This document shows, piece after piece, positions 229-22,141 of a stretch of 46,394 nucleotides of DNA. The position numbers were made by a program, and so were the translations under genes. This stretch comes from a virus. Within the stretch, counting starts at the first letter, position 1. The number at the start of each line of letters is the position of its first letter. The notes beneath the pieces are model-generated. The model saw only the letters and a list, made by a program, of their open reading frames with translations. It was not told the DNA's origin and did not search any database. The stretch lies in IMG/VR virus record IMGVR_UViG_3300021959_000081, positions 1-46,394 of that record; one strand, 5' to 3'.

Positions 229-242
229 TTCCCCAATGTTGG
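229..242 (-). promoter_or_regulatory. 14-base motif, copy 1 (possible operator)
   Basis: Read on the minus strand this is CCAACATTGGGGAA. It lies in the short gap upstream of the gene that starts at 198. An identical copy is at 1061-1074, upstream of the other leftward gene of this region. Its position before both genes suggests a shared regulator site, but this is inference. Confidence 0.35.
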
Positions 243-267
243 AGAAAATCCAGCCCGATATGTTCAA

Positions 268-867
268 TTACGCAGCCTTTCGCGCCGCTTTTGCCTTCAC
301 GTTCATGGCGATGGCCCGAGCGATCTCCGCTTGTGCTTCCACGGTAAAGTTGCGAGTGATCAAGGCGACCACTTCATGTGGTGCGAGATCGGCGAAGTTT
401 TCGCCTTTGCCTTCGCTTGCACCTTCGCCTTCGCTTGCACCTTCGCCTTCGCTTGCACCTTCGCTTGCATCCTTGGCATCCTTTTCCGCCTTCTTCGCGG
501 CTTTATCACAAGCTTGCTTGAGAGCGGTTAGCGACGTGAAACCACGCTTGGAAGCTTGCAGAACACCTTGGACAAGATCACTCTCACCTTCTCGGGCAAA
601 CCACAGCGCATCGCTGCGACGCTGGCCGGGTATCACGTCAAGCTTGTGTGCCTTCACAACCGCCTTGTCCAGATACGTACCAGGATTTTCAGAATAAAGC
701 TGCACAAGTAGTTTGCCGAGGCGATTGTCGAAACCGCCATCGGCGATGTCGCGTTTGAACACACGCCGATCAGCAGCCTCACGCTTGAGCCACAACGTGG
801 CGAGTTCATGCCCTTCGGTCTCGGTGGCGGTGTTGGTGGCGGTGGTGGTGTTGGTGTTGGTGGTCAT
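268..867 (-). CDS. Hypothetical protein with Thr/Asn-rich head and EGEGAS repeats
   Basis: I chose the ATG at 867 (199 aa) because it follows an AGGGG motif and a consensus promoter. The frame is open 104 codons further upstream, but that part covers the promoter and palindromes. Residues 1-17 are almost all Thr, Asn and Ala. Residues about 20-115 look globular and helical (MTTNTN... to ...ALKQACDKAA). A Lys-rich segment leads into tandem EGEGAS repeats at about 130-155, and a helical tail ends in KAKAARKAA. No catalytic motif or known domain is visible. The layout of two ordered parts joined by an acidic repeat linker, and the palindrome over its promoter, would fit a self-regulated DNA- or protein-binding factor, but this is inference. 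Codons are GC-rich compared with the phage genes to the right. Confidence 0.65.
   Translation of the reverse strand: MTTNTNTTTATNTATETEGHELATLWLKREAADRRVFKRDIADGGFDNRLGKLLVQLYSENPGTYLDKAVVKAHKLDVIPGQRRSDALWFAREGESDLVQGVLQASKRGFTSLTALKQACDKAAKKAEKDAKDASEGASEGEGASEGEGASEGKGENFADLAPHEVVALITRNFTVEAQAEIARAIAMNVKAKAARKAA
411..470 (-). repeat. 18-bp tandem repeat inside the 268-867 gene
   Basis: Three copies of an 18-bp unit (411-428, 429-446, 447-464) are followed by part of a fourth. Read leftward they code for repeated EGEGAS. Copies are identical, so length may vary between related genomes through slippage while keeping the frame. Confidence 0.8.
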
Positions 868-872
868 TTCCA

Positions 873-930
873 GTACCCCTAAGGTTGATAACACTTTCAC
901 TAGTTCAAGTGTTATCAACCTAAGGGGTAC
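873..930. promoter_or_regulatory. 58-bp inverted repeat over promoter and leader (operator candidate)
   Basis: The arms 873-896 and 907-930 are 24 bases each and complementary except at one position, with a 10-base centre. The outer part of each arm contains GTACCCC and the inner part GGTTGATAACACTT. The element lies just upstream of the ATG at 867, covers the predicted -10 region of the leftward promoter, and includes the AGGGG ribosome-binding site. No T-run follows, so a terminator is unlikely. The best reading is an operator for self-repression or an RNA hairpin that hides the ribosome site. Confidence 0.65.
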
Positions 931-945
931 TAAGGGGGTTGTCAA
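917..945 (-). promoter_or_regulatory. Leftward sigma70-like promoter
   Basis: On the minus strand a perfect TTGACA (945-940) is followed by a 17-base spacer and TAGGTT (922-917). The promoter would drive the gene starting at 867 and, by read-through, the one at 198. The -10 lies inside the large inverted repeat, so a protein bound there would block it. Confidence 0.5.
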
Positions 946-1006: not shown

Positions 1007-1025
1007 AAAAGTGTGTAACACTTTT
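1007..1025. promoter_or_regulatory. Small palindrome with 8-bp arms
   Basis: AAAAGTGT, three bases, then ACACTTTT. It lies upstream of the leftward promoter. The arms share the AGTGT/ACACTT element with the inner arms of the 58-bp inverted repeat, so both may be read by the same protein. This is inference. Confidence 0.4.
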
Positions 1026-1060: not shown

Positions 1061-1076
1061 TTCCCCAATGTTGGGG
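1061..1076. promoter_or_regulatory. 14-base motif, copy 2, inside a palindrome
   Basis: The motif of 229-242 recurs here exactly, at 1061-1074. In this copy it sits in the palindrome CCCCAA-TG-TTGGGG (1063-1076). It is upstream of the leftward gene of 268-867. Confidence 0.4.
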
Positions 1077-1663: not shown

Positions 1664-1686
1664 ATATAACTTATATATTATAGCTA

Positions 1687-1715
1687 TTGACTTACGTATC
1701 TGTTTATGGTATAAC
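1687..1715 (+). promoter_or_regulatory. Late-unit promoter P2
   Basis: TTGACT (1687-1692), a 17-base spacer ending TATGG, then TATAAC (1710-1715). The core at 1706-1722 matches P1 over 17 bases. It lies 118 bp downstream of P1 and about 60 bp before the first likely start codon. Confidence 0.75.
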
Positions 1716-1773
1716 TATATACAGTATGCTATTAATTTATAAACAACCTCTGCACATCCGTATATACTACTAT

Positions 1774-20873: not shown

Positions 20874-21227
20874 ATGGCAAATCCAAATATTGTCAACGTG
20901 GCTACGATTAACGGCAACACCGCCGTTCAAGCTGTTGGTACTAGCCCTACCGCTATTGTTACAAATTCGGCGGCTTCAGGAAAAGTGTACAAAGTAAATC
21001 TTCTTATCGTAAGCAATATTGATGGAACAAATAACGCGGAAGTTACCGTAGATTTATTTAGGTCAAGTACAGCATATCATATTGCAAAGACGATTATAGT
21101 ACCGGCAGATTCTAGCCTAGACGTATTAAGTAAACCTCTATATCTACTTGAAGATGATCAACTCCGATTGACTGCTAATTTAACAGGTGATTTAGAGGCA
21201 GTGTGTAGCTTTGAAGAGATTAGCTAA
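20874..21227 (+). CDS. Small structural protein after tail fibre (117 aa)
   Basis: An AAGGATAA site precedes the ATG. The sequence is beta-rich (IVNVATINGNTAVQAVGTSPTAIVTN; VYKVNLLIVSNIDGTNNAEVTVDLF; LEDDQLRLTANLTGDLEAVCSFEEIS), as in small jelly-roll-like phage proteins that often follow fibre genes. It may be a fibre tip or head/neck decoration. No named family is certain. The next gene starts on the last base of the stop. Confidence 0.6.
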   Translation: MANPNIVNVATINGNTAVQAVGTSPTAIVTNSAASGKVYKVNLLIVSNIDGTNNAEVTVDLFRSSTAYHIAKTIIVPADSSLDVLSKPLYLLEDDQLRLTANLTGDLEAVCSFEEIS

Positions 21228-22141
21228 TGTCTAGCAACGGAGGCATCATCGGTCCTATAAACACCCCCACAACATCAGTTGCTTCCGGCATCTGGTCGTT
21301 AGCCGAAGTGCAAGAGGCAGAAGGCAACGGTATATGGCCTTTAATGTCATATGATATTGAATATCTAGTTGTAGGCGGTGCTGGCGGTGGCGGCGGTGGG
21401 TATGGCGGTGCTGGCGGCGGTTCCGGTGGGCTCGTCACGTCAACAGGGTCTTACGCTCCTGGAAGCAGTCTTACTATCACTGTAGGAGGAGGTGGTTCTG
21501 GCGGTGGGACAACCTCCCAAGGGAGCGACGGCACAGGGTCCGTTTTTGATGCTATATCCCGAAACGGTGGCGGGGGTGGCGGCGCATTTCAGACCGTAGG
21601 GAACTCCGTGACCTTGGCAAGCGGTGGCGGCGGCGGAGCCAATAATGGTGGCGGCTCTCGATCTGGCGGGACGGGAACGTATGCTGGTGGCGCTGGAGCA
21701 AACAACACCTCGACCTATTTCGGGGGTGGTGGCGGCGGCGGCTCTAGTGCTAACGGCGCTAATGCTGGCGGGAACGGCATCGGCGGGGCTGGGGGCGCAG
21801 GCACCGCGTCTTCCATAAAGGGATCTGCCAACAATTACGCTGGTGGCGGCGGCGGTGGTGCATCTCACGCGGCTGGCGCGGGTCAAGCTGGCGGTGGTAA
21901 TGGCGGTGTTGGCTCCGGCGCTGGCGCGGCGGCAACAGCCAACACCGGATCAGGCGGTGGCGGCGGCGGCGGAAACTGGTCAGCACAGCTAGGAGCAGGT
22001 GGCAACGGAGGGTCGGGGGTCGTAATTTTACGGATGCTCACCGCTGTCTACAGCGGCACGACGACCGGAAGCCCGACTGTCACAACGGACGGCTCATATA
22101 CCGTGCTGCAATATAATTCGTCTGGGAGCTATACTGCATGA
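21227..22141 (+). CDS. Gly-rich tail adhesin, putative receptor-binding protein (304 aa)
   Basis: After a ~45-residue N-terminal part the protein is dominated by Gly runs (GGGGGG, GGAGG) separated by short polar loops, then a C-terminal beta part (GSGVVILRMLTAVYSG ... GSYTVLQYNSSGSYTA). Such Gly-rich proteins form packed polyglycine II helices in phage tail adhesins and contact the receptor by loops. Its place after the fibre genes supports this. Its DNA is much richer in GC than the neighbours, partly from Gly codons, and part of the following gene shares this, so recent transfer is likely. Confidence 0.7.
   Translation: MSSNGGIIGPINTPTTSVASGIWSLAEVQEAEGNGIWPLMSYDIEYLVVGGAGGGGGGYGGAGGGSGGLVTSTGSYAPGSSLTITVGGGGSGGGTTSQGSDGTGSVFDAISRNGGGGGGAFQTVGNSVTLASGGGGGANNGGGSRSGGTGTYAGGAGANNTSTYFGGGGGGGSSANGANAGGNGIGGAGGAGTASSIKGSANNYAGGGGGGASHAAGAGQAGGGNGGVGSGAGAAATANTGSGGGGGGGNWSAQLGAGGNGGSGVVILRMLTAVYSGTTTGSPTVTTDGSYTVLQYNSSGSYTA

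Follow-up and report, generated by a model that had tools for sequence, protein, structure and literature searches.

A conserved palindrome of HMO-2011-type phages that wraps the first early promoter and its leader

In the stretch of viral DNA analysed here (the window, 46,394 bp), a 60-bp palindrome is wrapped around the promoter of the first early gene and the leader behind it. Very probably (about 0.9), it belongs to a structure-forming palindrome that HMO-2011-type phages carry in several copies. Judged by its counterparts in related phages, it is a real and widely conserved control element at the promoter and start of that gene.

The phage and its early region

The record is a virus contig whose terminase shares 79-81% identity with the terminases of CRP-1, a Roseobacter phage, and HMO-2011, a Puniceispirillum phage. 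The family A DNA polymerase that it encodes has a DnaJ central domain, an arrangement published for HMO-2011 and the CRP phages (PMC6918029). By sequence, the window is an HMO-2011-type marine phage, and phages of this type have been described as a dominant, widely distributed group in the ocean (PMC9038755). The early operon begins with a gene for a 199-aa protein, and the corresponding first genes in relatives are CRP-345 gp01, CRP-1 gp01 and HMO-2011 gp74. Non-coding DNA, ~0.8 kb or longer, separates the early operon from a divergent late operon, a layout common to the relatives. The GC-rich left end (1-1370, 53% GC) was considered as chimeric or host DNA, an option that was rejected since its layout and elements match those of CRP-1, CRP-345 and HMO-2011. 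The lytic/lysogenic switch that the earlier note on this DNA had put forward would be hypothetical here: the phage encodes an integrase, and a relative, CRP-3, lysogenises (PMC6918029), but CRP-3, like CRP-2, carries neither the palindrome nor a homologue of the 199-aa gene.

Other features of the window were also recorded. Two direct-repeat promoter-like stretches, TTGACA/TTGACT-N17-TATAACTATATACA, face the late operon at 1561-1605 and 1679-1723 (+). The intergenic region of the relatives (window ~1340-1430) contains a highly conserved block, GTGGTTAACA..TTTTCCTGATCTGTGTA..TATA..ATATAC..CCCCC, which is possibly an origin, or a promoter with a C-rich stretch, and parts of which are found too in CRP-2, CRP-9 and CRP-207. 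A GC-rich segment (56%, in a genome of ~40% GC) at 21227-22141 carries a 304-aa gene that matches phrog_2295, of unknown function.

Geometry of the palindrome and its embedded promoter

The features at the start of the early operon are the following.

872..931, strand not assigned: palindrome, an inverted repeat able to form a hairpin, at the early promoter and its leader (sequence; conserved counterparts)
907..931, minus strand: left (5′) arm, holding the -10 element and the predicted start (sequence)
897..906, minus strand: loop, GAACTAGTGA (sequence)
872..896, minus strand: right (3′) arm, holding the Shine-Dalgarno (SD) sequence (sequence)
940..945, minus strand: -35 element TTGACA of the early promoter (sequence; place relative to the palindrome conserved)
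917..922, minus strand: -10 element TAGGTT, after a 17-bp spacer, within the left arm (prediction)
876..880, minus strand: SD sequence AGGGG of the 199-aa gene, within the right arm (sequence)
268..867, minus strand: first early gene (199 aa), of an all-alpha protein family, a candidate dyad-binding regulator (ORF start at 867)

On the gene-sense (-) strand, the palindrome reads AGTACCCCTtAGGTTGATAACACTT-GAACTAGTGA-AAGTGTTATCAACCTtAGGGGTACT, i.e., 25-nt arms that pair as 9 bp, one T.T mismatch and 15 bp around a 10-nt loop. The window contains no second inverted repeat of equal strength, and none of 10 Markov shuffles of the window produced a comparable one. An earlier note on this DNA had described a 58-bp inverted repeat with 24-base arms and a single mismatch, which is correct to within 1-2 bases; the span given there, 873-945, takes in the -35 element, while the repeat proper is 872-931. 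The loop pattern, (C)TTGAAC.TAGTGAAAG, is common to HMO-2011, L026 and L092, and it recurs as CTTGATACTTTAGTGAAAG in internal early palindromes. No intrinsic terminator was called at the palindrome, where there is no T run and the sequence past the arms is SD-like, and a tRNA-related site was rejected, as there is no tRNA within the window. An Rfam covariance-model search of the region gave no match above the gathering score, and the sub-threshold matches were to microRNAs and similar families.

The order on the gene-sense (-) strand is TTGACA-ACCCCCTTAGTACCCCT-TAGGTT-GATAACACTTGAACTAGTGAAAGTGTTATCAACCTTAGGGGTACTGGAA-ATG. The predicted +1 (~910, minus strand) is located within the left arm, and only the -35 element falls outside it. 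The sequence of both arms thus bears out the earlier statement that the palindrome overlies the -10 element of a TTGACA promoter and the ribosome site of the 199-aa gene. Among the non-redundant upstream regions of relatives bearing a TTGAC-like hexamer, 21 of 32 have the arrangement TTGACA-N17-TA, and 17 was the commonest of all spacings tried (nominal P 3e-11, for relatives that are not independent). This peak of TA at 17 nt past the hexamer therefore places the -10 element of the relatives in the left arm or its bulge. Based on a by-eye reading of the upstream regions, about half of the relatives have a degenerate -35 element (TGGACA, TCGGCA or TCTCCA) in an unchanged position. With few exceptions, the relatives have their SD sequence at the 3′ foot of the hairpin.

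Conservation and covariation in the relatives

Homologues of the 199-aa gene were gathered from viral contigs, and their upstream regions were compared. Of the 87 distinct upstream regions, 77 were classed as bearing a hairpin, and in most of these it comprises 23-47 bp in three stacked helices and ends a few nucleotides short of the start codon. The gene is present and the hairpin absent in L046, L090, L052/L054 and L112. The covariation test covered 35 of the 77 hairpin-bearing regions. Both-side changes were observed at 29 of 38 pairs, with 191 cells being double changes, a level reached by none of 500 shuffles; the covariation score was 0.358, compared with 0.085-0.113 after sliding the partner by 1-3 columns. 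The arm sequence varies freely among the relatives with pairing retained, while the proteins are conserved, and bulges are conserved in the hairpins, as is an asymmetric motif at the apex, TAGTGA[A/G]AG. In L043, L047, L072 and L133, an extra small ORF lies between the hairpin and the homologue, and the hairpin directly precedes that first ORF. The conservation upstream of homologues that the earlier note had proposed to look for was thus found. Different long leader hairpins, with an inner CTAACATARGCCAACYTATG stem common to both, precede the unrelated first early genes of CRP-9 and CRP-207.

The element is not confined to the first early gene. Its core, CACTTGATACTTTAGTGAAAGTG, with variable paired arms, recurs in early intercistronic gaps ~0.8-2.5 kb downstream of that gene. 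Counting only clear early-region hairpin matches, internal palindromes were identified in many relatives (L091, L131, L142, L032 and others; CRP-345, 799-881; HMO-2011, 1186-1258), and TTGAC lies upstream of 13 of the 78 distinct internal palindromes.

A second hairpin lies farther upstream in the window.

1007..1025, minus strand: hairpin AAAAGTGTTACACACTTTT, counterpart of the conserved B6 hairpin element (comparison with relatives)

This palindrome had been described as carrying half-sites related to those of the promoter palindrome. It does exist, but a functional kinship between the two finds no backing in the relatives, where the B6 position holds a separate hairpin and its arms do not change along with those of the promoter palindrome; therefore, the shared AAGTGTTA is probably without function. 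A conserved motif of ~85 nt, GAGTTTnGCnCACGAACTTC[hairpin]TGCAGTCA..GAAACGgCA.G.GCAGAGGATC, is located upstream of the palindrome in L154, L045 and others (window ~990-1060, the B6 counterpart). The hairpin inside this motif changes in sequence and keeps its pairing, and no Rfam family matched the motif.

Possible modes of action of the palindrome

Among the modes of action considered, the likeliest is a leader hairpin whose formation depends on the transcription start site, as in gene e of phage T4. RNA from the embedded promoter would start inside or past the left arm, which would make the full hairpin impossible, and the ribosome site, within or next to the right arm, would stay open. A putative RNA read in from upstream would have both arms and could form a 25-45-bp hairpin, which would mask or abut the ribosome site, so that the long RNA would be poorly expressed, and which would be a substrate for RNase III. 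We infer the start site, the folding of the RNA in the cell and the effect on translation or decay from the observed arrangement. This model is consistent with the -10/+1 in the left arm, the SD sequence at the 3′ foot, the covariation and the hairpin staying before whichever ORF comes first. For the window, the SD sequence has a predicted accessibility of 0.01 in the complete leader, compared with 0.34 in RNA from +1; the corresponding means of the 38 relatives with a promoter call are 0.49 and 0.72. Strong masking is predicted in only about a dozen of the 77 relatives, the window included, with a mean accessibility of 0.43. Also against the model are the scarcity of wobble pairs on the sense strand, although an RNA hairpin would tolerate them, and the internal copies, which lie tens of nucleotides upstream of an SD sequence and seldom have TTGAC nearby. 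Because strong masking is confined to some classes and the internal copies do not adjoin the SD sequence, we hold the model only tentatively.

The wobble-pair signature of a sense RNA was sought in the arms of the relatives and was not found. In structure-matched relatives, 93 double Watson-Crick changes were counted, while G.T arose in 2 cases, A.C in 3 and other mismatches in 16; A-T/T-A swaps were the commonest double change. On the sense strand, 1 of 1001 interior pairs is a wobble pair, compared with 28 of 1182 for the antisense strand, an antisense G.U excess that, in the early-leader palindromes, rests on about ten independent cases. This scarcity weighs against a sense RNA hairpin because single-step evolution should leave more wobbles, and it would be explained by folding of both DNA strands or by template-switch repair of the arms. 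Template switching is known to yield compensatory multi-base changes (PMC8794818).

The lack of wobble pairs is best explained by a reading at the DNA level, according to which a cruciform formed under negative supercoiling, or a dimeric regulator bound over the whole arms, would remove the -10 element, and the early promoter would be shut off after the linear genome that enters the cell has circularised and become supercoiled. The near-pure Watson-Crick pairing fits folding on both strands, since a G.T pair on one strand is A.C on the other, and the arms, free in sequence and AT-rich in most relatives, enclose the -10/+1. However, a cruciform would have no need of the conserved bulges and the asymmetric apical motif, arms of 25-45 bp far exceed the usual protein operators, and many internal copies have no recognisable promoter; this reading is possible but doubtful. 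Those internal copies are best explained by a leader hairpin of the RNase III or 5′-stabilising type, in which the whole palindrome would be transcribed from a farther-upstream promoter and the early mRNA would be cut or protected, as in T7. The hairpin length, the location ahead of the first early gene and between genes of the early operon, and the unrelated leader hairpins of CRP-9 and CRP-207 agree with this. It is nevertheless an unlikely explanation of the palindrome, since the TTGACA-N17-TA arrangement puts the -10 element in the left arm, so that at least those transcripts would lack the full hairpin, and sense wobble pairs are, again, nearly absent.

An autoregulatory operator of the 199-aa protein, as the earlier note had suggested, would account for the large palindrome being seen only in phages of the group that have the gene, CRP-2 and CRP-3 having neither, although this co-occurrence is partly built into a gene-based search. 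The arms vary freely while the proteins are conserved, the palindrome is separable from the gene and has internal copies, and a different site, a 14-bp dyad, tracks the protein, all of which makes this explanation quite improbable. Finally, the palindrome could be mostly a mutational product with little function, its arms being kept identical by template switching during replication. The preponderance of double Watson-Crick changes over single changes to G.T or A.C in matched pairs fits this, and such homogenisation of arms is known (PMC8794818). Nevertheless, the position at the promoter and start codon is fixed in ~70 distinct sequences, the bulges and the apical motif are conserved, and the hairpin is retained despite ORF insertions; we regard a mostly mutational origin as highly improbable.

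The 199-aa protein and the 14-bp dyad

The 199-aa protein is related to CRP-345 gp01 and CRP-1 gp01, and weakly to HMO-2011 gp74 (20% identity). It is predicted to be all-alpha with a basic N-terminal domain (pI 8.7; AlphaFold model pLDDT 82). Foldseek and VIA-align gave no useful fold match for the model, which is not proof of a new fold; the single near-significant Foldseek match was S4S2E1 (205 aa), which, judged by its length, is probably HMO-2011 gp74. No convincing match was found in Pfam or PHROGs, and no relative in a bacterial genome collection, in a search sensitive to close relatives only.

A symmetric 14-bp dyad, GTCCRAnnTYGGAC, is repeated across the early regions, and its form in the window is CCCCAAnnTTGGGG.

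1063..1076, minus strand: dyad CCCCAACATTGGGG (B5), a variant of GTCCRAnnTYGGAC (sequence)
231..244, minus strand: second dyad, CTCCAACATTGGGG, just upstream of the SD sequence (210-205) and ATG (198) of the second early gene (sequence)

The records of 14 relatives, CRP-1 and CRP-345 included, contain 4-7 dyads each, nearly all in the early region, and a reversed control pattern had no match in the same 14 records. Neither the dyad nor a homologue of the 199-aa protein was found in CRP-2, CRP-3, CRP-9 or CRP-207. HMO-2011 contains five copies of GTCCGN4CGGAC (61, 1262, 1927, 53879 and 54808), four of them directly before an early SD sequence and ATG. Among the downstream copies in the relatives, 112 of 158 are located just before an SD sequence and start codon, compared with 25% at random places. 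Most homologues also have one dyad inside the gene, where it encodes a conserved linker, SNVG or SDVG. In the window, 12-nt tandem repeats at 402-470 encode an acidic SEGEGA linker of the 199-aa protein at the place where relatives have the dyad-bearing SNVG stretch. The dyad variant is repeated unchanged within one phage, as observed in the window, L045, L022, L026 and HMO-2011.

Across 68 aligned proteins, 65 have K or R at residue 81; the protein of the window has G there and that of L040 has S. The CCCC form of the dyad is found at only two loci, the window and L040, which have the only two proteins without K or R at this residue. L039, the sister of L040, has K and the GTCC dyad; therefore, the pairing of residue 81 with CCCC probably arose twice. 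Based on this correlation, which rests on two events, the 199-aa protein probably recognises the 14-bp dyad rather than the palindrome. The role of regulator that the earlier note had assigned to the protein is thus plausible by way of the dyad, whose variant goes with residue 81; action through the palindrome, whose arms vary freely, is not supported.

It is conceivable, though we would not press it, that these elements make up an undescribed kind of early-gene control, in which a new all-alpha DNA-binding family would read 14-bp dyads placed before many early genes, and palindromic early promoters, with arms kept perfectly paired on both strands, would act by folding and not as sequence-specific operators. 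A limited search of the open-access literature found no description of gene control in HMO-2011-type phages, the palindrome and the dyad included. The cultured phages CRP-1, CRP-345 and HMO-2011 offer a defined cis element together with a candidate regulator and the site it may recognise, and early transcription and possible immunity of the group are therefore directly testable. Additionally, strong covariation with almost no wobble intermediates offers a useful natural case for the maintenance of hairpins by template switching.

Comparison with known systems

In phage T4, the ribosome sites of genes e, soc, 49 and I-TevI are masked in a helix, and the late promoters of gene e are located in the 5′ strand of the hairpin; the ribosome site of gene e is masked in long RNAs and not in RNAs started within the hairpin (PMC3014915). 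The predicted -10/+1 of the window likewise falls within the 5′ strand of the hairpin, with the ribosome site inside the right arm or next to it, and in both cases related phages carry similar leaders. In contrast to the late promoter of T4 gene e, the promoter of the window is early and sigma70-like and serves the first early gene. The arms in the window group are also longer and nearly wobble-free, masking is not universal among them, and the start is predicted from sequence.

The RNase III processing sites of T7 early mRNAs are long hairpins that precede the first early gene and occupy gaps between early genes. The window group has long hairpins in the same two settings, a fit by geometry alone, and differs in its strictly paired arms, conserved loop and embedded promoter. 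The put RNAs of HK022 are reported to be structured elements, too, that open long early operons, but they must be transcribed whole (PMC9378689), whereas the window element has no Rfam match.

The stoperators of cluster A mycobacteriophages are reported to be asymmetric sites (PMC9283540, PMC6550527), at which the bound phage repressor stops transcription, whereas the dyad of the window group is symmetric; the 199-aa candidate is all-alpha with no recognised DNA-binding fold, and repression and immunity are only hypothetical here. The resemblance is in the short sites dispersed over the genome (PMC9283540, PMC6550527), to which correspond multiple early-region dyads often beside gene starts, and in a candidate phage regulator that matches its 14-bp dyads.
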